Below are positions 13,537-54,264 of a stretch of DNA of 59,164 bases, piece after piece (the first letter of the stretch is position 1; every line of letters begins with the position of its first letter). The stretch comes from Achromobacter insuavis. Its GTDB lineage: Bacteria > Pseudomonadota > Gammaproteobacteria > Burkholderiales > Burkholderiaceae_B. The position numbers were made by a program, and so were the translations under genes. Location of the stretch: the NCBI RefSeq assembly GCF_902859645.1, contig NZ_CADIJR010000041.1:1-59164 (forward strand), in the 5' to 3' direction. The notes under the pieces were generated by a model. That model searched no databases. It saw only the letters and a program-made list of their open reading frames with translations, and was not told the origin of the DNA.

Positions 13537-13683
13537 TTATAGCCGGGAGGCGGAACTTGTCTGGGTTTTCCCCTAGCGGCCAGGCGTAACATTTGGCTGC
13601 ACTCGCGCGCAAGACCGAAATGCCGTGACGGCGGCCATCATGCTATGGTCGTCCCCGATTTTCTCGTCCCGAGGCCCCTGCCG

Positions 13684-14691
13684 ATGAACCTTCCGACCGC
13701 ACACCCGAACGCGCTGGCCAGGCGCCTGACCACCGCCGCCGTCGGCCTGCAGCTGCTGGGCGCCATCCTGGTTCAGCTCTACCTGGTAAGCGCCGGACCG
13801 CTGGCCGCGCTGACGCGCGAGGCGTTTGCCCGGCCCGACATGGTGGCGAGCACGGTAGTGAACATCGTCGCCGGCTGCATCCTGGTCGGCCTGACCACCT
13901 GGGGCGCCACGCAGCGCTGGCTGCGCCGGCACAACGCGGGCGACGTCGACCGCCCGGGCCGGATGGTGGCCGTGCTGCTGGCGGTCTCGCTGGTGCTGTT
14001 CGTGCTGATCTCGACCGGGCTGGCGTTGCTGCAGCACGGTTTCTACACGCTCATCTTCAAGCACAAGGAATGGGTGAACCAGGCCTTCGGCTATTACGGC
14101 GCCCGCCGCATGCTCCTGATGGCCCTGCCGCCCAAGCTGTGCGCCATCCTGCTCACCATCCTGGGCAGCTGGCTGGCGGTGCGCATCGCGGCCTGGAGCG
14201 TCACGCCCGTCGCCGCCGCGCAGGCGCCGTCCCTGCAGCGGCGCCACGCCGCGTGGATCGCCGCGCTGACGCTGCTGCTGTGGCAATTGCATGTCGCGCT
14301 GGTGATCGGCCTGTACTTCATGACCTATGCGGGATCGGCCGGCATGCTGGAACACGCGATCGGCTACTGGATCGTGCCCGCGTTGCTGCTGGCGCTGGCT
14401 GCATGGGTCTGCCTGCGCAGCCTGCCGCCAGTGCTGGGCGTAGCCGGCATGGGCCGCGCCATCGCCCACGGCACCTTCGCCTTCTGGCTGACCCAGGTGC
14501 TGGGAATCGGCCTGGCGCTTTTGATCATCTGGTCAATGACCTGGAGCCAGCTGATGCGCACGGCCGCGTCGTACACGACCTCGGTGGTGTCGGTGCTGAT
14601 CTACAGCGTGCTGCTGGCGCTGAGCTGCTACCTCGGCGCCCGGCTGCTCTACCACCGTCGCGGGACGCCGCCGGAGAGCGCGTCGGCCTGA
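13684..14691 (+). CDS. Multi-pass membrane protein, unassigned
   Basis: I do not recognise the family. The ATG at 13684 (335 aa) is preferred because GAGG (13671-13674) lies 9 nt upstream. The in-frame ATG at 13645 would add 13 unlikely residues. Hydrophobic segments are near residues 15-38, 55-75, 95-120, 142-165, 195-220, 228-250, 265-290 and 295-320, which suggests seven or eight helices. A polar loop after the fourth helix contains QRRHAAWIAAL. No transporter or enzyme motif is visible. It is transcribed alone and ends at a bidirectional terminator shared with the peptidase operon. Confidence 0.65.
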   Translation: MNLPTAHPNALARRLTTAAVGLQLLGAILVQLYLVSAGPLAALTREAFARPDMVASTVVNIVAGCILVGLTTWGATQRWLRRHNAGDVDRPGRMVAVLLAVSLVLFVLISTGLALLQHGFYTLIFKHKEWVNQAFGYYGARRMLLMALPPKLCAILLTILGSWLAVRIAAWSVTPVAAAQAPSLQRRHAAWIAALTLLLWQLHVALVIGLYFMTYAGSAGMLEHAIGYWIVPALLLALAAWVCLRSLPPVLGVAGMGRAIAHGTFAFWLTQVLGIGLALLIIWSMTWSQLMRTAASYTTSVVSVLIYSVLLALSCYLGARLLYHRRGTPPESASA

Positions 14692-14720
14692 GCGTGAGCG
14701 CCGCGCGATGGCGCGCATGC

Positions 14721-14754
14721 CATGAAAAAAGGCCCCTCGGGGCCTTTTTTCATG
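14721..14754. terminator. Bidirectional terminator
   Basis: A 34-bp near-perfect palindrome: CATGAAAAAAGGCCCC, a 2-nt centre and GGGGCCTTTTTTCATG. It gives a GC stem followed by six Ts on both strands, so it serves both the plus-strand membrane-protein gene and the minus-strand peptidase operon. Confidence 0.92.
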
Positions 14755-14768
14755 GTCGGAAACGACGA

Positions 14769-16559
14769 TCAGATGGCCGCCGTGCGACGCTCCAGCCAGG
14801 CCAGGGCCTCGCCTTCCACCAGCGGCGACAGGCGCTCGAACACGGTCTTGTGATAGTCGTTGAGCCACGCGGTTTCGTCGGCACGCAACAGCGACGGCTC
14901 GATGCAGCGCGTGTCGATCGGGCACAGCGTCAGCGTCTCGAAGCACAGGAACTCGCCCAGCTCGGACGTCAGCCAGGCGCGGTTGGCCACCAGGTTCTCG
15001 ATGCGCACGCCCCAGCGGCCCGGGCGGTAGATGCCCGGTTCGTTGGAGGTGATCATGCCCGGCTCCATCGCCGTGTGCGGGCCGGGAGCCGCGCGATAGG
15101 AGATGACCTGCGGGCCTTCGTGCACGTTCAGGAAATAGCCGACGCCGTGGCCGGTGCCGTGGCCGTATTCCGCGCCGCCTTCCCAGATCGGGGCGCGCGC
15201 GATGGCGTCCAGCATCGGCGACGGCGTGCCGCGCGGGAACGAGGCGCGCGACAGCGCGATCATGCCCTTGAGCACCAGCGTGAAGTCGACCTTCTGGTCG
15301 GCGCTGGGCGTGCCCACCGCGACCACGCGGGTGATGTCGGTGGTGCCGCCCAGGTACTGGCCGCCGGAGTCGATCAGCAGCAGGCCGTCGCCTTCGATGG
15401 TGGCGTGCGACTCGGCCGTGGCGCGGTAGTGCGGCATGGCGCCGTTGGCGTTGAAGCCGGCGATGGTGGCGAAGGTGGGGCAGACGTAGTCCGGGCGGCG
15501 CGCGCGGGCGGCGGTGATCTGCTCGTCGATGGTCAGCTCGGTGATGCGCTCGTTGCCCAGCGCGCCTTCGAACCAGGCGAAGAACTCGCACAGGGCGGCG
15601 CCATCCTGCGCCATCGCGTGGCGCACGTTGGCCAGTTCGGCGTCGGTCTTGCGCGACTTGATCAGGGTGGACGGGTTGATCGCCTCGACGCGCGGCACGG
15701 CCGGATCCATCGCGTGGAACACGCCGCAGGTGACGCGGGCCGGATCGATCAGCAGCTTCTGGTCCAGTTCGAGCGAGGCCAGCGCGTCGGCGGCCTGGGC
15801 GTAATCGGCCACCTCGACGCCATCGGCGGCCAGCGTGTCGCGCAGGGCGGCGTCGATCTTGCCGTCGGCCACGAACAGGGTGGCGTGGTCCGGGCCGATC
15901 AGCGCATGGCCGACGAACACCGGGTTGTAGTCGACGTCGGCGCCGCGCAGGTTGAAGAGCCAGGCGATGTCGTCGAGCGTGCTGACGAAATGCACGTCGG
16001 CGCCGTGGGCGCGCATGGCGGCGCGCACCTGGGCCAGCTTGTCGGCGCGCGCGACACAGGCCTGCGGCGCCACGTGTTCGTAGATCGCGGCCTGCGGCAG
16101 GCCGGCGCGGTCGGTCCAGATATCGTCCAGCAGGTCGGCGCGGATCTCCAGCGTGGCGCCGGACGTGGCGGCGGCCACCGACAGCGCGCGGAACGCGGCC
16201 AGGCCCAGCACCTGTCCATCGACGCTGATGACGTCGCCGGCGCGGGTGTTGGCGGCCAGCCAGTCCACATGGCCCGGCGTGGTGGCGACGGCGATCTTCA
16301 TCAGCTGCACGCCGGTGCCGGCCAGTTGCGCCTCGGCCTGCACCCAGTAGCGGCTGTCGACCCACAGGCCGGCGAAATCAGCGGTCACCACCAGCGTGCC
16401 CACCGAACCCGTGAAGCCCGACAGCCAGCGCCGGCCCTGCCAGCGCGCCGGCAGGTACTCGGACAGGTGCGGATCCGAGGACGGCACGATATAGGCGGAC
16501 AGGCCGCGGCGGCGCATGGCCTGCCGCAGTTGGGCAATACGGGTGTCGGTGCTGGACAT
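14769..16559 (-). CDS. M24B family aminopeptidase P (Xaa-Pro aminopeptidase)
   Basis: A 596-aa protein starting at the ATG at 16559, preceded by AAGGAAA; longer frames upstream are not needed. It has two N-terminal creatinase-like domains (beginning TRIAQLRQAMRRRGL) and a C-terminal pita-bread domain. The dimetal site blocks are LLIDSGGQYLGGTTDITR, GHGTGHGVGYFLNVHEGP and NEPGIYRPGRWGVRIENL. This is the large eukaryotic-APP1-like form, which removes an N-terminal residue preceding proline. It is the last gene of the gsi/peptidase operon, 8 nt after the M55 peptidase stop, and ends at the terminator at 14721-14754. Confidence 0.92.
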   Translation of the reverse strand: MSSTDTRIAQLRQAMRRRGLSAYIVPSSDPHLSEYLPARWQGRRWLSGFTGSVGTLVVTADFAGLWVDSRYWVQAEAQLAGTGVQLMKIAVATTPGHVDWLAANTRAGDVISVDGQVLGLAAFRALSVAAATSGATLEIRADLLDDIWTDRAGLPQAAIYEHVAPQACVARADKLAQVRAAMRAHGADVHFVSTLDDIAWLFNLRGADVDYNPVFVGHALIGPDHATLFVADGKIDAALRDTLAADGVEVADYAQAADALASLELDQKLLIDPARVTCGVFHAMDPAVPRVEAINPSTLIKSRKTDAELANVRHAMAQDGAALCEFFAWFEGALGNERITELTIDEQITAARARRPDYVCPTFATIAGFNANGAMPHYRATAESHATIEGDGLLLIDSGGQYLGGTTDITRVVAVGTPSADQKVDFTLVLKGMIALSRASFPRGTPSPMLDAIARAPIWEGGAEYGHGTGHGVGYFLNVHEGPQVISYRAAPGPHTAMEPGMITSNEPGIYRPGRWGVRIENLVANRAWLTSELGEFLCFETLTLCPIDTRCIEPSLLRADETAWLNDYHKTVFERLSPLVEGEALAWLERRTAAI

Positions 16560-16567
16560 GGGTTTCC

Positions 16568-17470
16568 TTAGCGCAACATGAAGGACATCGCGGCCAGGCT
16601 GTTCAGGGTGCGAACGGCGGCCTGCATGCTGTCGGTGGTGAACCGCAGCGTCACGCCGTCCACGCGCTCCAGCGTGGGCCACATGCAGAACAGGTCGGCG
16701 AGCGCCGCGCTCTGGGTCTGCAACCGGCATTCTATAGGGGCGGGGATGCGGAAAGGAACCGCCTTTCCACCGCTGGGCCGCCCCGAGGTGGAAACGCCCC
16801 CCTGGGGGGCAGCAAGCCCGCCTTGCGGGCGCGGCGTGGGGGTCGTTCCCTTCAGGTTGCGCACGGCGGTCTCCGCGGCGGCGGCGATCGCGCGGCGCGA
16901 GGCCGCCGGCGACAGCGTCACGCCGCTGCCCTGGCCGTGGGCGACCTTGGTCTGCACCCACTGCGCGCCGGGGAACAGGTCGGTGGTCTCGGCGATGAAC
17001 ACGTCGTCGCCGGTGGCCAGGATGACGGGCACGCCCATTTCACCGGCCAGCGCGCCGTACAGGCCGGCCTCGCCCAGCTCCATGCCATTGATGAAGACGC
17101 GCGAGAAGGCGAAGCTGTTGATGGTGTGCGCGAGAATGCCGCGACCCTGCGAGCGCGAGTGATAGCCGATCATGAAGACCGCGTCGCAGCCCTCTTCCAG
17201 GCCGCCCATCATGCCCAGGTAGCGCGGCTTGCCCAGCACCAGGCGGGCGCGTTCGTCCAGGCCGTCCGGCAGCAGGTTGCGGAAACCGCCGTGCGAATCG
17301 TTGACCAGGATCTCTTCGGCGCCGCCGGCGATGGCGCCCTGCACGGCCGCGTTGGCCTCGGCGGTCATCCAGGCGCGGGCGCGTTCGTATTCGCCGTTGC
17401 CTGCGCGCACTTGTTCGGCGTGGAAGACGCCGGCGACGCCTTCGATATCGGTGGAAATCAGGATTTTCAT
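16568..17470 (-). CDS. M55 family D-aminopeptidase (DppA-type) with in-frame repeat insertion
   Basis: A 300-aa protein starting at the ATG at 17470. Residues align by number with the Bacillus DppA active site as I recall it: Asp8 and Glu10 (STDIEGVAGV), His60 (VNDSHGG), His104 (GYHSRSQGRG) and His115 (ILAHTINSF), with Glu134 one off the expected 133. The family makes zinc-dependent decamers that cleave peptides with N-terminal D-amino acids. Residues 208-239 are a Gly/Pro/Ser/Thr-rich insert absent from the normal fold; without it the length is 268, close to the usual 270. The insert is encoded by a repeat-like DNA element (separate entry). The frame is intact and the active-site residues lie outside the insert, so activity may persist. 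Confidence 0.9.
   Translation of the reverse strand: MKILISTDIEGVAGVFHAEQVRAGNGEYERARAWMTAEANAAVQGAIAGGAEEILVNDSHGGFRNLLPDGLDERARLVLGKPRYLGMMGGLEEGCDAVFMIGYHSRSQGRGILAHTINSFAFSRVFINGMELGEAGLYGALAGEMGVPVILATGDDVFIAETTDLFPGAQWVQTKVAHGQGSGVTLSPAASRRAIAAAAETAVRNLKGTTPTPRPQGGLAAPQGGVSTSGRPSGGKAVPFRIPAPIECRLQTQSAALADLFCMWPTLERVDGVTLRFTTDSMQAAVRTLNSLAAMSFMLR
16754..16849. repeat. Dispersed repeat-like element inserted in frame in the M55 peptidase gene
   Basis: A 96-bp stretch (32 codons) between the codons for Lys207 and Phe240 of the peptidase. It contains CCCCCCTGGGGGG, a CCCGCCTTGCGGG hairpin and a CGCGGCGTGGGGG end. I recall this composite pattern, joined to CCGCCCCGAGG, as a common intergenic repeat in Alcaligenaceae and related Burkholderiales. 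That identification is from memory and was not checked by search. The length is an exact multiple of three and adds no stop codon. Confidence 0.65.
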
Positions 17471-17490
17471 GGGGTGTGCCTTGGTGGGAT

Positions 17491-18585
17491 TCAGAATTCG
17501 GTGTCCGCCAGCCATTGGCGCCAGTCGGGAGCGGCGTCGCGGAGGGCGGCGCGGTGATGGCCATCGCGGCCCCGCACGCTTTCGGCCTGCCACAGCGCGG
17601 CGATGATGGCCTGCTCGCAGGCCTCGGCGGCCGCCTCGAACAGCGGATCGATGCGGGTTTCGTGCAGCATGGCCAGCGCCGGCATCGGCTGTTCGGCCTG
17701 TTGCGGCACGGTGTACGCGGTGGAGAACGCCAGCGCGATGTCGCCGCTGCCATGGCCGAACACCGAGCCGGTGCGGGCCAGGCCGGCGCCGGCGCGCAGC
17801 GACAGGCGGCGCAACTGGCGCGCGTCGAGCGGCGCGTCGGTCGCCACCAGCAGGATGATGGAGCCCTTCTCCGGCACGATGGCGGCGTTCTCGCCCGCCT
17901 GCGCCAGGCCGCGGTCCAGTTGATCCGCCAGCCGCCGGCCGAAGGGCCGGCCGGCCACGGTCAGATTGGGCAGGCGGCCGAAATTGGCCAGCACCAGCGC
18001 GCCGACGGTGTAGCGCAGGCCCGGCTGGATCGATGCCAGGCGCGAGGCCGAGCCGATGCCGCCCTTGAAGGAAAAGCACGACATGCCGCGGCCGGCGCCG
18101 ACCGCGCCCTGCGCCATGCGCTTGTCCGCGGCGGCCAGCGCCTGGGCGTAGTGCGACTCCTGCACCGCCATGGCCTGGATGTCGTTCAGGTAGCCGTCGT
18201 TGCACTCGAACACCAGCGGATTGACCGTCGACATGCCGCGGCCGATCTCGGGCGTGGCCGCCACCGCCGAACGGATCTGGGCGTTGGCCACGGTGCCCAC
18301 GCCGAAGGTGTTGGTCAGCGCGATCGGCGTTTCCAGCACGCCCAGTTCCTGCACCTGGACCAGGCCGGTGCTCTTGCCGAAGCCGTTCAGCACCGTGGCG
18401 GCCGCCGGCACCTTGTCCAGGAACAGATTGCCGCCGTGCGGCCGCACCACGGTCACGCCGGTCTGCCGCGCGCCGTCGTCCAGCGTGCAGTGGCCGACGC
18501 TGATGTCGCCCACGTCGCAGATCGAATCGAGCGGGCCGGCCTCCAGCTTGCCGATGCGGGGTTGGTCCAACGCTTGTTTGTCCAT
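17491..18585 (-). CDS. P1/S58 family peptidase (DmpA-like aminopeptidase)
   Basis: A 364-aa protein from the ATG at 18585 (an upstream ATG at 18621 is possible but would add residues outside the family pattern). The N-terminus has SICDVGDISVGHCTL and the middle has FECNDGYLNDIQ and FSFKGGIGSASR, all typical. The self-cleavage site reads EKGSIILLVATDAPL, with the predicted break between Gly241 and Ser242. This makes Ser242 the N-terminal nucleophile of the beta chain. Family members remove N-terminal L-, D- or beta-amino acids or amides. It lies 20 nt before the M55 gene and 169 nt after gsiD, in a dedicated peptide-use operon. Confidence 0.9.
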   Translation of the reverse strand: MDKQALDQPRIGKLEAGPLDSICDVGDISVGHCTLDDGARQTGVTVVRPHGGNLFLDKVPAAATVLNGFGKSTGLVQVQELGVLETPIALTNTFGVGTVANAQIRSAVAATPEIGRGMSTVNPLVFECNDGYLNDIQAMAVQESHYAQALAAADKRMAQGAVGAGRGMSCFSFKGGIGSASRLASIQPGLRYTVGALVLANFGRLPNLTVAGRPFGRRLADQLDRGLAQAGENAAIVPEKGSIILLVATDAPLDARQLRRLSLRAGAGLARTGSVFGHGSGDIALAFSTAYTVPQQAEQPMPALAMLHETRIDPLFEAAAEACEQAIIAALWQAESVRGRDGHHRAALRDAAPDWRQWLADTEF

Positions 18586-18754
18586 GCTTGTCGCTGCGTG
18601 TCGCCACGCTCCAGAATGCAAAATGCCGCCGTCCTGCGTGGCCGTGGCGCGCGCCGCGAGGCGGGCGCCCGGACGCGGGCGGCGGCAAGGGATCCGATGC
18701 CGCGCGCCGAGCCCCGAGGGGCGGCCGGCGCGGTGGCCATCATCCGCTTGGCGG

Positions 18755-19657
18755 TTACTTGCGATCGATCTTGGGATCGAGCGCGTCGCGCAGGCCGTCG
18801 CCCAGCAGGTTGAACGCCAGCACGGTCAGGAAGATCGCCAGCGCCGGGAAGATCGCCACGTGCGGGGCGATCACCATGTCGGCGCGCGCCTCGTTCAGCA
18901 TCGCGCCCCACTCCGGCGTGGGGGGCGAGGCGCCCATGCCCAGGAACGACAGGCTGGCCGCGGTGATGATCGAGGTGCCGATACGCATCGTGCCGTACAC
19001 CACGATCGGCGAGATCGTGCCGGGCAGGATGTGGCGCATGATGATGGTCCAGTCGGACGCGCCCACGCTCTTGACCGCCTCGACGTAGGTCATCTGCTTG
19101 ATCGATAGCGTGTTGCCGCGCACCAGGCGGGCGAACGCCGGCACGCTGAACACGGCCACGGCCACGATCACGTTGACCATGCTCGAGCCCAGGATCGCGA
19201 CCACGCCAATCGCCAGCAGCATGCCGGGGAACGCCAGCAGCACGTCGGAGACGCGCATCGTGATGCGCTCCCACCAGCCTTCGTAGTAGCCCGCCATCAG
19301 GCCCATGAAGGTGCCGACGACGGCGCCCATGGCGACGGACAGGAAGCCGGCGGCCAGCGAGATGCGCGCGCCCATGATGATGCGGCTGAAGATGTCGCGG
19401 CCCAGCGAGTCCACGCCCAGCCAGTGCGTCCACGAGGGACCGGCATTGAGGGCGTCGTAGTCGAAGAAGTTCTCCGGGTCGAACGGCACGATCCAGGGGG
19501 CCAGGATCGCCACCACGACCAGCAGCAGGACGAAGAGGCCGGCGCCCACGGCCAGCTTCTGCTTCTTGAACTTGCGCCAGAACTCGGTGGCGGGCGTGCG
19601 CACGTCGTTCTTGGGCACGGCGGTGGCGACGGTTGCGGCGGGTGTCGTATTGCTCAT
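18755..19657 (-). CDS. gsiD: Peptide/glutathione ABC transporter permease GsiD
   Basis: A 300-aa permease of the DppC/OppC group, starting at the ATG at 19657. A long cytoplasmic N-terminus ([20 protein letters not shown]) precedes the first helix, followed by the NWLGVD-like segment ([16 protein letters not shown]) characteristic of this group. The inner-membrane EAA loop is [22 protein letters not shown]. About six helices are present. It begins 7 nt after the gsiC stop. The order iaaA-gsiA-gsiB-gsiC-gsiD and a length near E. coli GsiD (303 aa) support the gsi name. The peptide actually transported is not known. Confidence 0.85.
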
Positions 19658-19664
19658 GGCCGCC

Positions 19665-20585
19665 TCACTTGTAACGGATGCTGGGATTGATGACGCCGTA
19701 GAGCACGTCGACAATCAGGTTGATCAGGATGAATTCGAACGAGAACAGCAGCACCAGGCCCTGGATCACCGGGTAGTCGCGCTGGGTCACGGCATCGACC
19801 AGCAGGCGGCCGAGGCCGGGCCAGTTGAACACCGTCTCGACCACGATCGAGCCGCCCAGCAGGAAGCCGAACTGCAGGCCCATCATGGTGACGACCGGAA
19901 TCAGCGCGTTGCGCAGCGCGTGCTTGATGACCACGCGGCGCTCGCTCAGGCCCTTGGCGCGGGCGGTGCGCACGAAGTCTTCCTGCACCACTTCGACGAA
20001 GGAAGCGCGGGTGAAGCGCGCCATCACCGCGGCCACGGCCGCGCCCAGCGTGATGGACGGAAGTATGTAGTGTTTCCAGCTGGAGGCGCCCACGGTCGGC
20101 AGCCAGCCCAGGTTCACGGAGAAGATCTGCATCAGCATCATGCCCAGCGCGAACGCGGGGAACGAGATGCCGGACACCGCCAGCGTCATGCCCAGGCGAT
20201 CGGGCCAGCGGTTGCGCCAGACGGCGGACACGATCCCGATGATCATGCCGAAGGTGACGGACCAGGCCATACTGGCGATCGTCAGCCACATGGTGGGCAT
20301 GAAGCGATCGGCGATTTCGGTCGAGACGGGACGCTTGGTACGCAGCGAGGTACCCAGGTCGCCTTGCAGCATGTGGCTGAAGTAGCGCACGAACTGCTGC
20401 GGCAGGGGCAGATCCAGGCCCAGTTCCTTGCGCACCAGTTCGACGGTCTGCTGGTCGGCCTCCTGGCCCGCGGCCAGTCGCGCCGGGTCGCCCGGAAGCA
20501 TGTGCACAAACAGGAACACGACCACGGCCACCAGCAGCAGCGTGGGGATCATGCCCAAAAGACGTTTGACGATGTAGGTCAGCAT
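19665..20585 (-). CDS. gsiC: Peptide/glutathione ABC transporter permease GsiC
   Basis: A 306-aa permease of the DppB type, equal in length to E. coli GsiC. It starts [18 protein letters not shown], the standard DppB opening, and has the ATFVFxxxxLLPGDPA-like block ([17 protein letters not shown]). The EAA coupling loop is [20 protein letters not shown]. The frame extends upstream to 20642, but the ATG at 20585 gives the family N-terminus. It works as a heterodimer with GsiD in the inner membrane. Confidence 0.87.
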
Positions 20586-20673
20586 TGAAATTCCTGCAAC
20601 ATCGGCGGGGACACCGCGTCCCCGCCGTATGTGGCCTTGCAAGGGCCTTGCGGCCCCGAGAGTTACCGCCGGA

Positions 20674-22227
20674 TTACTGCTTCAGTTCGATGTCGCCGAA
20701 CCAGAACGAGGTGTCCGGTTCCACGTACACGCCCGACAGGTTCTTCGACTTGACGTACAGGTTGTTCTGGGTCACCAGGAAGGCCCACGGGGCGTCCTTC
20801 CAGATGGTTTCCTGAACGGTCTTGTAGATCTCGGTCTTCTTGGCGCGGTCGGTCGTCGCCAGGGCTTGCTGGATGCCGTCGTCAACCGACTTGTTCGAGT
20901 AGTACGACACGTTGTTGAGCACCGGCGGGAACGCGGCGGTGGTCAGCAGCGGACGCAGGCCCCAGTCGGCTTCGCCGGTCGAGGACGACCAGCCGGCGTA
21001 GTACATGCGGACCTTGGCGTCTTCAGGCTTCTGCACCTGTTGCACGCGCTGCACGCGCTGGCCCGATTCCAGCACTTCGACCGACACCTTGATGCCGACT
21101 TGCGCCAGTTGCTGCTGCAGGAACTGCACCACCTTCACCGAGGTGCCGTCGTTGTAGGCGGACCAGAGCTGGCTTTCGAAGCCATTGGGGTAGCCGGCTT
21201 CGGCCAGCAGGGCCTTGGCCTTCTTGATGTCGTACGGCCACGGGCCGGTCTTGTGGGCGAAGTCCACGCCGGTCGGCACGACGCCGTCGACGACGGTGGC
21301 GTAGCCCGAGAAAGCGACCTTGGCCAGGGCTTCCTTGTTGATGGCGTAGTTGATGGCTTCACGCACCTTGACGTTGTCGAACGGCTTTTGCTGCACGTTC
21401 ATCGACAGGTAGCGGGCCATGATCGAGTTCTTGTGGTCGACCACGTCCAGCTTGTCGTTCTTGGCCAGCACGGCGGCCTGCTCGAACGGCACCGGGAAAG
21501 CGAACTGCGCTTCGCCCGTCTGCACCACGGCGGCGCGGGTGTTGTTGTCGGTGACGGTGCGGAACGTCAGGGTGTCGACCTTGGGGTAGCCCTTCTTCCA
21601 GTAGCCGTCGAACTTCTTGACCTTCAGGTATTCGGCCGGTTTCCATTCGACGAATTCGAACGGGCCGGTGCCGACCGGGTGGAAGCCGATTTCCTTGCCG
21701 TACTTGGCCAGGGCGGCCGGCGAGATCATCATGGCGGCCGGGTGGGCCAGCGCGTTGATGAAGGCCGAGAACGGCTTCTTCAGCGTGATCTTGACGGTCA
21801 GCGGGTCGATCACTTCGATCTTCTCGATGACGCTGAACTGGATGTAGCGCGACAGGCGGTTTTCCGGGTTGGCCGGACGGTCGAAGTTGATCTTGACGGC
21901 TTCGGCGTTGAACGGGGTGCCGTCATGGAACTTGACGCCATCGCGCAGCTTGAAGGTGTACACCAGGCCGTCTTCGCTGACGGTGTAGTCGGTGGCCAGC
22001 ACCTTCTGGACCTTCAGGTCCTTGTCGAACTCGAACAGGCCTTCGTAGTAGGCCTTGCCGGCCGCCTGGTTCAGCGTGCTGTTGGTGTTGTACGGATCGA
22101 GCGTTTCCAGCGCGATGGAGACGGCAAACGTCACGTCCTTGGCAGCATGCGCCAGCGGCGAGGTGAGCACGCCGAAGGCCACCGCGGCGGCGGCCATCAG
22201 CTTGGTGGGGCGCAGAACTTTCATCAT
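20674..22227 (-). CDS. gsiB: Periplasmic peptide/glutathione-binding protein GsiB
   Basis: A 517-aa family-5 solute-binding protein. It has a signal peptide ([20 protein letters not shown], cleavage after AHA) and the SBP_bac_5 opening [15 protein letters not shown]. Internal blocks are [20 protein letters not shown] and [25 protein letters not shown] lies just before the two adjacent ATGs at 22227 and 22224; the first is given. It is next to E. coli GsiB in length (512 aa). It delivers the ligand to GsiCD; the ligand class is inferred from context (iaaA and three peptidases). Confidence 0.87.
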
Positions 22228-22292
22228 TGCAACTCCTGGTTCCGTGAGGAATTAGGGGGTTTGGTGGAAGAAAAACAAGTACGACAACTGAC

Positions 22293-24179
22293 TCAATACG
22301 CTCCGCCGACCGCATGGCGGGCGACGAAGTGATCGGTTCCTACCTGCACCAGCGGTTGCACCACCGGCTCGTCGCCGAGCTTGCGGATCGGGCTGGGAAT
22401 TTCATCGGACAGCAAGGTGCGCTTCATGTGGCGGCGCGCCGGATCGGCGATCGGCACGGCGGCCATGAGCTTCTTGGTATAGGGGTGCTGCGGGTTCTCG
22501 AAGATGGCCCGGCGCGGACCGATCTCGACAATCTGCCCCAGGTACATGACCGCCACGCGGTGGCTGACGCGCTCGACCACGGCCATGTCGTGCGAAATGA
22601 ACAGGAACGAAATGCCCATGTCGCGCTGCAGGTCGATCAGCAGGTTGACGATCTGCGCCTGGATCGACACGTCCAGCGCCGACACCGATTCGTCCGCGAT
22701 CACGACCTTCGGGTTGAGAGCCAGCGCGCGCGCGATACAGATGCGCTGGCGCTGGCCGCCGGAGAATTCATGCGGATAGCGCTGCGCCATTTCGGGCGGC
22801 AGGCCGACGCGTTCGAGCAGTTCGGCCACGCGCTGCTCGGCTTCCTTACCCTTGGCCACGCCGTGCACCAGCAGCGGCTCCATGATCGAGAAACCGACCG
22901 TGACGCGCGGATCGAGCGAGGCGAACGGATCCTGGAACACGAACTGGATGTCGCGGCGCAGGGCTTGCAGTTCGGAGGTCTTCAGACGCACGATGTCGCG
23001 CCCGCCGAAGCGGATCTCGCCGCCCTGGCTGTCCACCAGGCGCAGCAGCGAGCGGCCGGTGGTGGACTTGCCGCAACCGGATTCGCCCACCAGCGACAGC
23101 GTCTCGCCGGGGTACAGGTCGAAGCTGACCTTTTCCACGGCATGCACGCGGCGCTGCACGCGGCTCATGATGCCGCCGCGCAGGTCGAAACGCGTTACCA
23201 GGTCGCGCACGCTCAGGATCGGCTCGCGGCGCGCGGCCGGCACTTCCTGGGTGCTGGTGGCGCCGGGTTCGGCCACCGGCTGAGCCTTGCCGTCCACCTG
23301 CAGCAGCGGGAAACGCGCCGGCAGGTCGGTGCCCTGCATCGCGCCCAGCTTCGGCACGGCCGACAGCAGCGCCTTGGTATAGGCATGCTGGGGCGTGGCG
23401 AACACCGACGCCGACGGGCCTTCCTCGACCTTGTCGCCGCGGTACATGACCAGCACGCGGTCGGCCACTTCGGCGACCACGCCCATGTCGTGGGTGATGA
23501 ACACCACGCCCATGTGCATTTCTTCCTGCAGCTGGCGGATCAGTTGCAGGATCTGCGCCTGGATCGTGACGTCCAGCGCGGTGGTGGGTTCGTCGGCGAT
23601 CAGCAGCGCCGGCTTGCAGGCCAGCGCCATGGCGATCATGACGCGCTGGCGCATGCCGCCCGACAGCTGGTGCGGGTAGCGGTCCAGCACCGACTTGGCT
23701 TCGGGGATGCGCACCTGCTCCAGCATGCGCAGGGCTTCGGCGCGCGAGGCCGCGGCGTCCATGCCCTGGTGCTCGCGGATCGATTCGGCGATCTGGTCGC
23801 CGGCCGTGAACACCGGGTTCAGGGAGGTCATCGGCTCCTGGAAGATCATGGCCATGTCGGCGCCGCGCACATTGCGCATGGCGCGCTGGTTGGCATTGAC
23901 CAGGTCGATCACGGAACCGTTGCGCCGGCGCAGGGCCATGCTGCCCTGGGCGATGCGGCCGCCGCCATGTTCCACCAGGCGCATCAGCGCCAGCGACGTC
24001 ACCGACTTGCCCGAACCCGATTCGCCCACGATGGCCAGGGTCTCGCCCCGGTCCACATGGAACGACAAGTTGCGCACGGCTTCGACCGTGCGCTCCGAAC
24101 CCACGAAGCGCACCGTCAGGTCGTCGACCTGGACCACGCGGTTATCCGGCAGCGCCAGGCTGTTTGCGCGATCAACCAT
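22293..24179 (-). CDS. gsiA: Dual-ATPase ABC transporter ATP-binding protein GsiA
   Basis: A 628-aa protein with two complete ABC cassettes fused (E. coli GsiA is 623 aa). Cassette 1: Walker A GESGSGKS at 52-59, signature LSGGMRQR, Walker [13 protein letters not shown]. Cassette 2: Walker [10 protein letters not shown], signature FSGGQRQR, Walker [13 protein letters not shown]. Each is followed by an Opp-type C-terminal zone ([24 protein letters not shown]). The start ATG at 24179 is 46 nt after the iaaA stop; the frame extends further but overlaps iaaA. It energises GsiBCD. One polypeptide replaces the usual DppD and DppF pair. Confidence 0.92.
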
Positions 24180-24225
24180 ATCTCTAGTAATCCCCAAAAC
24201 TGACAAAAACGAAGCCCGCCGCCGC

Positions 24226-25206
24226 TCAGCGGTAGATGGCGGTGACCGGCTTCTCGCCGACGCGGGCGTAACCGCGGTACATGCCTTCCGTGTTGAACGG
24301 CAAGGCCACATTGCCCTGGGCGTCGACGGCCACCAGGCCGCCCTTGCCGCCGATGGTGGGCAGTTTTTCCATCACGACGCGGTCCGCCGCCGTTTCCAGC
24401 GAGGCGCCGCAATATTCCATCTGGGCCGCCACGTCATAGGCGGCGACCATGCGGATGAACATCTCGCCCGTGCCCGTGGTGGACACGGCGCAGGTCTTGT
24501 TGCTGGCGTAGGTGCCGGCGCCGATCAGCGGCGCGTCGCCGACGCGGCCGACCTGCTTGTTGGTGATGCCGCCGGTGGAGGTGGCCGCGGCCAGGTTGCC
24601 CTGCGCGTCCACGGCCACGGCGCCCACGGTGCCGAACTTCTTGTCCGAATCCAGCGGATCGGCCGGCGCCGGCTGGCCGCGCGCGACCATGGCCTGGCCG
24701 TCGTGGTCCAGCACCGCCGCTTCCGGCGTTTCGCGCTGCACGCGCAGCAGCTGCTCGCGGCGCGCTTCGGTCGAGAAGTACGACGGGTCGACCAGTTCCA
24801 GGCCGGCGTCCTTGGCGAAGGCTTCGGCGCCCTCGCCCACGAAGAACACGTGCTTGCTGGTTTCCATGACCTTGCGCGCGGCGAACACCGGGTTGCGCAC
24901 GCAGTTGACGTTGGCGATGGCGCCCGAACGCAGCGTGGCGCCGTCCATGATGGCGGCGTCCAGCTCATGGGTGCCGGCGCTGGTGAACACGGCGCCATGG
25001 CCGGCGTTGAACAGCGGGCAGTCTTCCAGCAGGCGCACGGCCTCGGTGACGGCGTCCAGCGCGCTGCCGCCACGGGCCAGCACGGCCTGGCCGGCGGTCA
25101 GGATGGATTCGAGCGCGCTCAGGTATTCCTGCTCTTTCTCGGGCGACATGGCCGCGCGGGACATCGCGCCGGCGCCACCGTGAATCGCGATCACGGGTTG
25201 AATCAT
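24226..25206 (-). CDS. iaaA: Isoaspartyl peptidase/L-asparaginase (Ntn hydrolase)
   Basis: A 326-aa plant-type asparaginase. It begins [19 protein letters not shown], the family opening. The autocleavage nucleophile is Thr193 in [11 protein letters not shown], giving alpha and beta chains. The downstream [19 protein letters not shown] and [14 protein letters not shown] blocks bind substrate. The enzyme hydrolyses isoaspartyl dipeptides and asparagine. Its ATG (25204-25206) overlaps the rpiR stop by 4 nt (ATGA), so the two are translationally coupled. In E. coli iaaA is also followed by gsiABCD, which supports both names. Confidence 0.93.
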
Positions 25207-26078
25207 CGTTTACCTACTCCATGGATGAGCCACGGCATCACGGACTGGGTCACCCCAGCGGCGGCCGCGACGGAATTCTTGGCCCGATAGGCCACCGCCG
25301 CCGACAAGGCCTCGATCAGGCCGAGCGCGGCGGTTTCGGAATTGGGGATCAGCTGGCGCGTGGACACGGCGTACAGCACCACCGACGCGGTCGGCGCCAG
25401 CGGCGAGGTGGGCTTGTCGGTCAGCACCAGCACCGGTACGCCGGCCTGCTTGGCGGCGCCCGCCAGGGTCACGGTGTCGGCCAGGTAGCGCGGAAAGCCG
25501 ATCGCGATCACCAGATCCTTGCTGGTCATGCGCGACATCTGGCGCGCCGCGTGCGACACCCCGCCCGGGCCGGCCAGCGATTCGACCGAATGCAGGTGCA
25601 TGCACAGGCCGCGCTGCAGCATGCCGGCCAGGAAGCCGCTGGCGCCGAAGCCGATGATGAACACGCGGTCGGCGGCCAGGATGGCGTCGACCGCCTGCTC
25701 ACAGGCGGCGGCATCCAGGGTCTGCAGGTTGCGCTGGGCGTTGCGGATGTCTTCTTCGAGGGTCGCGGCGAAGATCTGCACCGCGCTGGCCGAATGCGCC
25801 AGCTCGGTGCGCAGCTTTTCGACCGGCTCCAGCGCCGCCTCGAAGCCGCGCGCCAGCTCGGCGCGGAACTGCGGATAGCCCGGCAGGTCCAGGGCGCGCG
25901 CGAAGCGGTTGGCGGTCGCGACCGACACCCCCGCCGCCGTCGCGAATTCGTCGATGGTCATCGTGGCCACGCGGAACTGGTGCGCCAGGACGTATTCGGC
26001 CATCTTGTGCTGCGTGCGGCTCAGCGCGGGCTGGGCCCGGGCGATCCGATCAGCGATCGTGAGTGCGGCCTTGTTCAT
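25203..26078 (-). CDS. MurR/RpiR family transcriptional regulator
   Basis: A 291-aa regulator from the ATG at 26078. The N-terminal HTH_6 domain (TMTIDEFATAAGVSVATANR, about residues 40-75) is followed by a SIS sugar-phosphate-binding domain (about 115-260; VFIIGFGASGFLAGML and VIAIGFPRYLADTV). A frame running to an ATG at 26129 exists, but it would start inside the inverted repeat at 26109-26128 and has no Shine-Dalgarno sequence. RpiR regulators normally sense a phosphosugar. Here it is the first gene of the peptide-uptake operon and probably its regulator. The identity of the effector is open; a muropeptide or amino-sugar signal would fit. Confidence 0.88.
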   Translation of the reverse strand: MNKAALTIADRIARAQPALSRTQHKMAEYVLAHQFRVATMTIDEFATAAGVSVATANRFARALDLPGYPQFRAELARGFEAALEPVEKLRTELAHSASAVQIFAATLEEDIRNAQRNLQTLDAAACEQAVDAILAADRVFIIGFGASGFLAGMLQRGLCMHLHSVESLAGPGGVSHAARQMSRMTSKDLVIAIGFPRYLADTVTLAGAAKQAGVPVLVLTDKPTSPLAPTASVVLYAVSTRQLIPNSETAALGLIEALSAAVAYRAKNSVAAAAGVTQSVMPWLIHGVGKR

Positions 26079-26108
26079 CGAAAAAAGGGGGGAGACGTAG
26101 CGGAGGTT

Positions 26109-26128
26109 TGTGTAAATCTGTTTACACA
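26109..26128. promoter_or_regulatory. Candidate RpiR operator (perfect inverted repeat)
   Basis: TGTGTAAA, a 4-bp spacer and TTTACACA: an 8-bp perfect inverted repeat. It ends 31 nt upstream of the rpiR start codon, in an AT-rich island within otherwise GC-rich DNA. The position fits autoregulation of the whole operon. Further small palindromes (GAAAATTCATTTTC, GGGTATACCC) lie within the next 45 bp. Confidence 0.55.
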
Positions 26129-26265
26129 TAAATTTTAGATAAGAAAATTCATTTTCATACTAAGGGTATACCCGTGAATTTATGTAACAGTGCTTCAAAA
26201 GAAACGGGGCCGGTTTGAGGTACGCTAAATGCCCCTTCCCGTTTCCCGTTTTCCGGAACCTTCGA

Positions 26266-26724
26266 ATGCCCGCCTGGACCTGCAAACCCCACGCCGAACT
26301 GACCCTGGCCGAGCTCTACGCCATCCTGCGCCTGCGCTCGGAAGTCTTCGTGGTGGAACAGAACTGTGTCTTCCTGGACATGGACGACAAAGACCTGCTG
26401 GGACAGACCGAACACCTGATGGCCTGGGACAACGGCGCGCTGCTGGCCTATTGCCGCCTGCTGGAACCGGCGCTGAACGACGGCCAGGCGGTCATCGGCC
26501 GCGTCATCACGGCGCCGGCGGCGCGCGGCACGGGCCTGGGCCACGACCTGATGCGCCGCGCCAAGGACGAAGTGGCGCGGCTGTGGCCGGGCCAGCCGGT
26601 CTACCTGGGCGCGCAGGCCCGGCTGCGCGGCTATTACGGCGGCCACGGCTTCGTGCCGGTGACCGAGGAGTACATCGAGGACGGCATCCCGCACGTCGGC
26701 ATGCTGCTGCGCGAAGCGGCCTGA
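26266..26724 (+). CDS. elaA: ElaA-like GNAT acetyltransferase
   Basis: A 152-aa protein from the ATG at 26266; the longer frame from 26215 lacks a ribosome site and family residues. The sequence begins with the ElaA pattern (LAELYAILRLRSEVFVVEQN) and carries the acetyl-CoA motif IGRVITAPAARGTGLGHDLM (R-G-x-G-x-G/A type). The C-terminal YLGAQARLRGYYGGHGFVPV is near-diagnostic. The substrate of ElaA is unknown. The gene is alone, convergent with scoAB across a mirrored terminator. Confidence 0.87.
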   Translation: MPAWTCKPHAELTLAELYAILRLRSEVFVVEQNCVFLDMDDKDLLGQTEHLMAWDNGALLAYCRLLEPALNDGQAVIGRVITAPAARGTGLGHDLMRRAKDEVARLWPGQPVYLGAQARLRGYYGGHGFVPVTEEYIEDGIPHVGMLLREAA

Positions 26725-53643: not shown

Positions 53644-54264
53644 ATGCCCCACCGCCCCTCCGACCCCGGCATCCCCACCCTGACCCAGCGGGCCGAACCC
53701 ACCCTGTCGCCGTCCACGCCGCCGCCGGACGCCCCGCTGCTGACCGAGGTGGCGCCCGAGCGCGCATCCGCCCATGACGGCGACGCCTTCCCGCTGCTGA
53801 CCGACGTGGCCCGGCATGACGACGCCTTTCCGTTGCTGACGGATGTCGCCCGGGATGACGACGCCTTCCCGTTACTGACCGACGTCGCCCGGGATGACGA
53901 TGCCCTCCCGCTGCTGACCGACGTCGCCCGGGATGACGATGCCCTCCCGCTGCTGACCGACGTCGCCCGGGATGACGATGCCTTCCCGTTGCTGACGGAT
54001 GTCGCCCAGGACGGCGCCGACGCGTCGCGTTCGGCTGAAGCGGCCGATACGCCCGCCCTGCCGCCCCCCGCCGCGGTGGTCGCGCCCGCCGCCCCGGCCA
54101 CGGCATCGCCAGAGGCCTCGGTGCTGGCCGCCCGCCTGCAGGCGGAAGTCGAACAGGTCATGCGCCAGGCCCTGGCCGACGCCATCGAACAGATCCAGGC
54201 CCGCATGGACGAGGAACTGCCGCGTATCGTGGCGCGGGTGATGCAGGACGTCAGGCCCGGTTGA
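53644..54264 (+). CDS. Acidic protein with six 13-residue repeats (DUF2486-like)
   Basis: A 206-aa protein. Residues 47-124 are six tandem copies of D-A-F/L-P-L-L-T-D-V-A-R-D-D, with looser copies before (IPTLTQ, APLLTEVA). A Pro/Ala-rich linker (128-155) leads to a predicted amphipathic helix (EASVLAARLQAEVEQVMRQA onward). No signal or membrane helix is seen. Proteins downstream of holC in Burkholderiales with an LPVLTEVV-type motif are called DUF2486; the match is by context and motif from memory. Function is unknown. The repeat unit is very uniform at DNA level. Confidence 0.75.
   Translation: MPHRPSDPGIPTLTQRAEPTLSPSTPPPDAPLLTEVAPERASAHDGDAFPLLTDVARHDDAFPLLTDVARDDDAFPLLTDVARDDDALPLLTDVARDDDALPLLTDVARDDDAFPLLTDVAQDGADASRSAEAADTPALPPPAAVVAPAAPATASPEASVLAARLQAEVEQVMRQALADAIEQIQARMDEELPRIVARVMQDVRPG
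53782..54015 (+). repeat. Six tandem 39-bp coding repeats
   Basis: Units start at 53782, 53821, 53860, 53899, 53938 and 53977. Each is exactly 39 bp, so gain or loss of a unit keeps the frame. Units 4 and 5 are almost identical, which suggests recent duplication. Confidence 0.95.

Follow-up and report, generated by a model that had tools for sequence, protein, structure and literature searches.

Peptides that carry D-residues or isopeptide links are resistant to the common peptidases and, to our knowledge, the ways in which proteobacteria reclaim them are poorly mapped. One described enzyme of this field is the M55 peptidase DppA (solved structure 1hi9), which we take to be a member of the dpp operon of Bacillus subtilis. 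The transporter Gsi of Escherichia coli imports glutathione disulfide (GSSG), as stated in PMC11719327. Here we analyzed a stretch of 59,164 nucleotides of Achromobacter insuavis (contig NZ_CADIJR010000041.1, hereafter the window), in which nine genes in the order RpiR-IaaA-GsiABCD-P1-M55-M24 lie on the minus strand between positions 14769 and 26129. We propose, with a probability of roughly 0.55, that they would form an autoregulated uptake-and-digestion operon for peptides closed to ordinary peptidases, D-residue or isopeptide substrates being likely; such substrates would likely be compounds such as cell-wall fragments and aged proteins, and the putative importer possibly accepts glutathione disulfide too. 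What can be read directly in the DNA are the gene set and its order, intact active sites, a conserved double operator and a terminator-like hairpin. A search for this gene combination in the open-licence PubMed Central (PMC) literature found nothing, and the operon was not found there described as a system, its genes appearing only as rows of expression tables in the accessible part of PMC5357869. The nine genes are the following.

25203..26078 (longest open reading frame, ORF, from 26129), minus strand: rpiR, regulator with HTH_6 and SIS domains (Pfam)
24226..25206, minus strand: iaaA, isoaspartyl peptidase / plant-type asparaginase, nucleophile Thr193 (Pfam PF01112; best solved relative 2zak)
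22293..24179, minus strand: gsiA, fused double ATPase (NCBIfam GsiA 1041.3 bits, equivalog cut-off of 1077 narrowly missed)
20674..22227, minus strand: gsiB, periplasmic binding protein of family 5 (NCBIfam GsiB 737.7 bits, cut-off 594)
19665..20585, minus strand: gsiC, permease (NCBIfam 606.5 bits, cut-off 463)
18755..19657, minus strand: gsiD, permease (NCBIfam 574.6 bits, cut-off 484)
17491..18585, minus strand: P1/S58 aminopeptidase of the DmpA/BapA family, nucleophile Ser242 (Pfam PF03576 and solved relatives)
16568..17470, minus strand: M55 D-aminopeptidase of the DppA family (Pfam PF04951; solved match 1hi9)
14769..16559, minus strand: M24 aminopeptidase P-like protein, lineage-specific and outside the core (Pfam)

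The initial annotation, made from the sequence alone, had named these nine genes on one strand, and Pfam confirmed the family of each of them; NCBIfam models, with varying strength, also matched the regulator, IaaA, the transporter and M55, and gave no match for P1. GsiB, GsiC and GsiD exceeded the curated NCBIfam cut-offs for the glutathione transporter; IaaA, with 438.7 of 567 bits, stayed below its equivalog cut-off as GsiA did. The ATGA overlap at the rpiR-iaaA junction and the gaps of 7, 20 and 8 nt elsewhere were also correctly described, making four of the eight junctions 20 nt or shorter, and the remaining four gaps, of 46, 65, 88 and 169 nt, had been left unlisted. The longest of these, between GsiD and P1, could give room for an internal promoter; in eight operon loci of other genera the same junction measures at most 4 nt or overlaps in seven, and 43 nt in locus L105.

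The arrangement is not a peculiarity of one strain. Of 43 genus genomes, 41 have an M55 above the threshold (the two without it are 78% and 57% complete), and all nine genes stand in order in 39 of the 40 genus loci fetched, the 40th ending at a contig edge. Gene order across Burkholderiales had been set as a check by the initial annotation. Ten M55 loci of other genera were obtained from our sample of the order: eight hold IaaA-GsiABCD-P1-M55 in order, seven of them with an RpiR match, and two have only a distant M55. We also compared 80 named loci, those with the most similar M55 among 450, which overlap with the genomes of our samples (G labels) and are not an independent sample; 45 carry the eight-gene core RpiR-IaaA-GsiABCD-P1-M55 and 22 the core plus M24, giving 67 in total. 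Seven of the 13 partial loci are stretches shorter than 17 kb with the 3' end only; an RpiR match was missing from L129, L147, L153 and L183, IaaA and P1 from L136, and GsiB and GsiC from L156. This last locus, from Paraburkholderia sacchari, has rpiR, iaaA, P1 and M55, with short matches to gsiA and gsiD and none to gsiB or gsiC. The genera bearing the cluster include Achromobacter, Bordetella, Cupriavidus, Ralstonia, Pandoraea, Variovorax, Polaromonas and Candidimonas.

Linkage of the binding protein to the peptidases was then counted in two samples. Among 250 genomes of the order M55 is present in 13, S58 in 27, Asparaginase_2 in 57 and GsiB over its cut-off in 12; in 11 of these 12 genomes M55, S58 and IaaA adjoin GsiB, and G227, the remaining one, lacks M55, having S58 and an IaaA in the opposite orientation. 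Among 398 genomes of the phylum, GsiB matches of E 1e-110 or better gave 30 rows, 13 of E. coli type (982.8-1117.5 bits) and 17 others. M55 lies within about 5 kb of GsiB in 16 of these 17 (the exception being G446) and in 0 of the 13 E. coli-type rows, which belong to family f58, probably the Enterobacteriaceae. Five genomes of the phylum sample (G297, G458, G470, G477 and G652) have M55 without GsiB.

The linkage to M55 is the opposite of what is expected if the cluster is a glutathione (GSSG) importer, as annotated, whose peptidases are passengers or serve for released Cys-Gly. No gamma-glutamyl hydrolase family is represented in the nine-gene set, the enzymes beside GsiB are not known to take part in glutathione breakdown, and enzymes for D-residues adjoin the loci of relatives. 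We consider this explanation quite unlikely, even with GsiB, GsiC and GsiD above the NCBIfam cut-offs, a GsiB 58.1% identical to that of E. coli, and the import of GSSG by E. coli Gsi reported in PMC11719327.

The catalytic residues of the enzymes are intact. The metal and catalytic residues of M55 (D8, E10, H60, H104, H115 and E133/134) are invariant in 49 of 49 aligned sequences, the nucleophile Ser and SGD/E motif of P1 and the nucleophile Thr of IaaA are each found in 48 of 48, and the metal ligands of M24 in 42 of 42 aligned relatives, their roles being those we presume for each family; these counts omit L103, L106 and proteins shorter than 60% of the window's length, and two distant M55 proteins were excluded. 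The only solved match of the window M55 is 1hi9, and the window protein reached 163.6 bits against the cut-off of 430 of the NCBIfam Bacillus DppA model. IaaA enzymes cut beta-aspartyl bonds and are not known to cut gamma-glutamyl ones, and P1 and M55 enzymes remove N-terminal D-, Gly- or beta-residues.

M24 was tried as a member of the core and rejected, locus and genome comparison marking it as a lineage-specific addition. Among eight operon-bearing genomes outside the genus, an M24 homologue (E 1e-60 or better) lies away from the operon in four (G049, G217, G245 and G248), adjoins it in one (G140) and is lacking in three (G199, G212 and G219); of two genomes without M55, G095 has a homologue and G045 does not. 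M24 is found in 26 of the 80 named loci, 23 of them from named Achromobacter or Bordetella and three from metagenome-assembled genomes under other labels. Of the initial annotation's proposal, a dedicated operon is supported, conserved well beyond one strain and with a private operator; the four peptidases as a unit are not.

The analysis of the rpiR leader revealed a predicted operator in two copies, so that the candidate operator noticed earlier in front of the genes is real and double.

26111..26126, minus strand: main operator TGTAAACAGATTTACA in the rpiR leader, strict form in 39 of 39 genus loci and in the window
26142..26157, minus strand: second operator, upstream, TGAAAATGAATTTTCT, one mismatch to the degenerate form, best second site in 40 of 40 genus leaders

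The strict palindrome TGTAAA-N4-TTTACA is exact in all 39 genus leaders and occurs a single time in the 6.8-Mb genome. It is exact in 24 and has one mismatch in 25 of 69 named-locus leaders; the corresponding values are 1 and 2 for seven other leaders of the order sample and 1 and 4 for eight further leaders, and first-order Markov control leaders had no exact site. Measured between centres, the second site stands 31 bp upstream of the first; all 40 genus leaders, that of the window among them, show it with a single mismatch to TGWAAA-N4-TTTWCA. A pair was scored where the first site deviated at no more than one position, the second at no more than three, and the two were spaced by 30-32 bp. 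All 40 genus leaders have such a pair, as do 21 of the 22 named leaders from Achromobacter or Bordetella and 39 of 62 others, against 0 of 4960 controls, the operator form being derived from the same leaders in which it was counted and the controls being shuffled leaders; a good pair is missing from 23 of the 62 leaders outside Achromobacter and Bordetella and from one of the 22 named ones within them. The 31-bp spacing suggests cooperative binding at the predicted double operator, which in its strict form only is private to the operon. A regulon sharing the strict operator was rejected on this single genomic site, degenerate sites not having been searched genome-wide. A scan of 13 kb for sigma-70-like promoters gave none on the operon strand and a single site on the plus strand (26121-26148).

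The longest ORF of rpiR starts at 26129, its first codons overlapping the operator. The start at 26078 is preferred as the likely true one: in the register examined, a stop interrupts the 17 preceding codons in 27 of 39 genus loci, and RpiR of the relative L098 starts at the equivalent position; an ATG lies exactly there in 28 of 39 genus loci, the anchor being off in the remainder. A GNAT-family gene (26215-26724) diverges from the same leader as the double operator; it is present in all 39 full-length genus loci, in two named Bordetella loci, and in 0 of 10 order-sample loci outside the genus.

Control by amino sugars, proposed in the initial annotation, does not agree with the SIS domain of this regulator. 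The SxSG motif of SIS domains is tied to phosphosugar sensing; in its place the window-type RpiR carries [FY]PRY..DT, whose P, R, Y, D and T are shared by all nine sequences compared, and the relative 8ju9 has SQSG there. We therefore rejected phosphosugar control, which seems unlikely for this operon. The solved RpiR-family protein 3sho also carries RY..DT, so that this RpiR sub-type is already known in structure.

Relatives of the system in other orders supply a clue to its substrates. Alphaproteobacteria have similar gene sets in a changed order, namely P1-RpiR-GsiABCD-M55-IaaA in Paracoccus yeei, RpiR-GsiABCD-M55-IaaA without P1 in Agrobacterium vitis, and RpiR-D-amino-acid aminotransferase-GsiABCD-P1-M55-IaaA in Azospirillum lipoferum, where the aminotransferase is annotated as such and falls under the NCBIfam D-transaminase cut-offs. 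Sinorhizobium has a D-amino-acid aminotransferase beside its P1 gene, and in a Bosea locus M55 is followed by a protein of the asparaginase-II family, with no match to IaaA or P1. In the second-type loci L195-L199, also of family f58, a DgcA-like gene stands ahead of GsiABCD-P1-M55 in five of five, DgcN is found in three and IaaA in two. DgcN and DgcA are over the NCBIfam cut-offs in L195 and L199, and the L197 protein reaches 390.2 of the DgcA cut-off of 400. Moreover, two plasmids (L247 and L248), a Klebsiella one of conjugative type and a Pantoea one, carry the order dgcN-dgcA-gsiABCD-P1-M55, indicating that what looks like a D-glutamate version of the cluster can be plasmid-borne. D-glutamate genes beside the relatives favour peptides with D-residues, and the earlier suggestion of D-residue or isopeptide import gains from these neighbours (DgcN/DgcA and the D-amino-acid transaminase), while a GsiB near that of E. 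coli makes glutathione a possible ligand as well. A further locus, L204 (8203-13715), holds a P1-M55 pair, parts of an amino-acid-type ATP-binding cassette (ABC) transporter and a D-amino-acid transaminase over the subfamily cut-off, with no GsiB match.

The proteins of L195, L197 and L199 also pass the L-Ala-D/L-Glu epimerase model, and the top solved match of the L199 DgcA-type protein is such an epimerase (1jpd), as would be anticipated if the cluster salvaged murein peptides specifically, for instance L-Ala-gamma-D-Glu(-mDap), as a proteobacterial counterpart of B. subtilis dpp-ykf. We regard this narrower explanation as rather unlikely: a Pfam scan of 25 chosen neighbour sequences, one of them an arbitrary stretch, found no NlpC/P60, LD-carboxypeptidase, MpaA or amidase family, IaaA is known for beta-aspartyl and not for gamma-glutamyl bonds, and DgcN is as indicative of free D-glutamate as of a dipeptide.

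According to the operon that we propose, GsiB, whose N-terminus resembles a Sec signal, would capture the peptide in the periplasm and GsiACD would carry it into the cell. There IaaA would cleave beta-aspartyl bonds, and P1 and M55 would remove N-terminal D-, Gly- or beta-residues; inspection by eye of IaaA, P1 and M55 found no signal peptide. M24 would contribute Xaa-Pro cleavage in this lineage. RpiR, bound at two sites some three helical turns from each other, would act as a repressor until released by a ligand, probably derived from the peptide and not a classical phosphosugar.

Expression values exist for Ralstonia solanacearum, in which a comparison of roots with rich medium lists RSc1377, RSc1378, RSc1381 and RSc1384 with log2 changes of -2.7, -3.4, -2.2 and -3.1 (PMC5357869). 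RSc1377-RSc1384 fits the eight-gene order of three named Ralstonia loci (L162, L175 and L177); within that list the genes are co-regulated, which speaks for the operon proposed here, a single transcript not being proven thereby. Higher values in rich medium would suit a general di/tripeptide importer with broad peptidases under nitrogen or peptide-supply control, an explanation that we find very improbable: the pairing of IaaA, P1 and M55 is specific, all three being enzymes of unusual peptides, and of the DppA residues said to clamp the peptide ends, Asp408 is Ser in all aligned GsiB groups and Arg355 falls in a gap of this loose alignment.

Several observations weigh against the uptake-and-digestion operon proposed here. 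Enzymes of the P1 and M55 families take L-residues or Gly as well. DgcN, DgcA and D-amino-acid transaminase were absent from the fetched Burkholderiales stretches (tblastn, 1e-20); the D-residue clue thus comes from relatives, whose GsiB is 41-50% identical. Only five fixed GsiB columns separate the E. coli type (14 sequences) from the Burkholderiales-like set (27), so shared ligands are plausible and glutathione-type ligands likely. In genome G446 (locus L245) a GsiB outside the E. coli type is accompanied by IaaA, with no P1 or M55 match in 19 kb; L245 is the first to branch in the wider, 32-row transporter tree (77.3/70), so P1 and M55 may have joined an older transporter at a later time; this branching is also a point for glutathione import.

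The transporter trees were rooted by one long-branched outgroup, E. coli Dpp. In a tree of GsiB, GsiC and GsiD with 28 rows, one group (100/100) unites E. coli Gsi with the Burkholderiales and related systems, E. coli standing outside the latter (97.6/76), and Azospirillum and the second-type systems, bearing P1 and M55, fall outside the E. coli/Burkholderiales group; E. coli GsiB is 39.6-42.3% identical to three second-type proteins. This tree omitted L191, L194, L245 and L246, which the 32-row tree includes. There the group of E. coli, L246 (P1 present, no M55 match) and Burkholderiales is again 100/100, with a weak placement of E. coli inside it (58.3/72 and 92.5/89), and a tree of GsiB only did not settle the position of E. 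coli. The simplest reading, not proven, would be that P1 and M55 were gained once after L245 and lost later on the E. coli branch, a loss that the L245 branch slightly weakens. A tentative possibility, which we hold to be doubtful, is that an older system, salvaging peptides that are branched or carry D-residues or isopeptide links, gave rise to the E. coli glutathione importer as a stripped-down branch. GSSG, being gamma-linked and two-armed, would then be imported through a site made for such peptides, and many glutathione-transporter annotations outside the E. coli type would misname the main substrate.

Behind the cluster, the initial annotation had placed a terminator, and a hairpin is indeed found 3' of M24.

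14720..14755, no strand assigned: terminator-like hairpin between convergent genes (fold z -6.1)
16763..16837, minus strand: dispersed-repeat copy, in frame, in a variable linker of M55 (profile split, repeat family, loop alignment)

The hairpin has 16 pairs and -28.7 kcal/mol, but a consensus terminator scan did not list it; the region holds 10 terminator-like sites against a shuffle mean of 7.9 (standard deviation 3.0), no clear excess. The dispersed repeat within M55 has 18 genome matches, the window copy included, 40 of 93 candidates having been scored. The M55 profile match is divided at this place in 5 of the 41 genomes of the genus whose M55 exceeds the cut-off; by a crude test most other copies are not within a clear ORF, and for the window copy an antisense ORF was flagged. 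The convergent neighbour (13645-14691), without an NCBIfam match, shows 32-93% identity within the genus where matched and is unmatched in some loci; pyrG, beyond it, keeps a steady 96-100%. In other Burkholderiales the genes downstream of M55 differ by genus. A DUF2817 protein (L130, 11762-12844) lies there on the same strand in Cupriavidus pinatubonensis, and ORFs like it cluster in eight loci, L130 alone having been scanned. Elsewhere in the window, in an ORF at 53644-54264, a unit of 13 residues of the DDDAFPLLTDVAR type is repeated in tandem about six times, as encoded by a 39-bp tandem repeat.

A conserved and privately regulated importer together with its enzymes makes the reclaiming of such peptides a directly testable question; it could also correct the widespread annotation as glutathione transporter, and it hints at how E. 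coli Gsi may have evolved.

Compared with the known systems, the cluster shares with E. coli iaaA-gsiABCD the order of IaaA and the four transporter genes, as the initial annotation had recognized, whereas a 9-kb E. coli stretch has no RpiR, P1, M55 or M24. B. subtilis dppABCDE-ykfABCD likewise combines an M55 enzyme with a peptide ABC importer, and its epimerase-type gene is paralleled in relatives of the window system; the window adds P1 and IaaA, its M55 is far under the Bacillus DppA cut-off, and the NlpC/P60 and LD-carboxypeptidase of the B. subtilis-type operon are absent from the nine genes and the 25 sequences of relatives scanned. The gammaproteobacterial dgcN-dgcA clusters (the Klebsiella and Pantoea plasmids and the second-type loci) share the GsiABCD-P1-M55 order, but have a GsiB 40-44% identical, D-glutamate genes in front, IaaA in only two of five second-type loci, and a LysR-type regulator nearby with no RpiR match. 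Finally, the regulators of the RpiR/MurR family share HTH_6 and SIS with the window RpiR, and differ from it, in the case of 8ju9, by keeping SQSG where the window type has [FY]PRY..DT.

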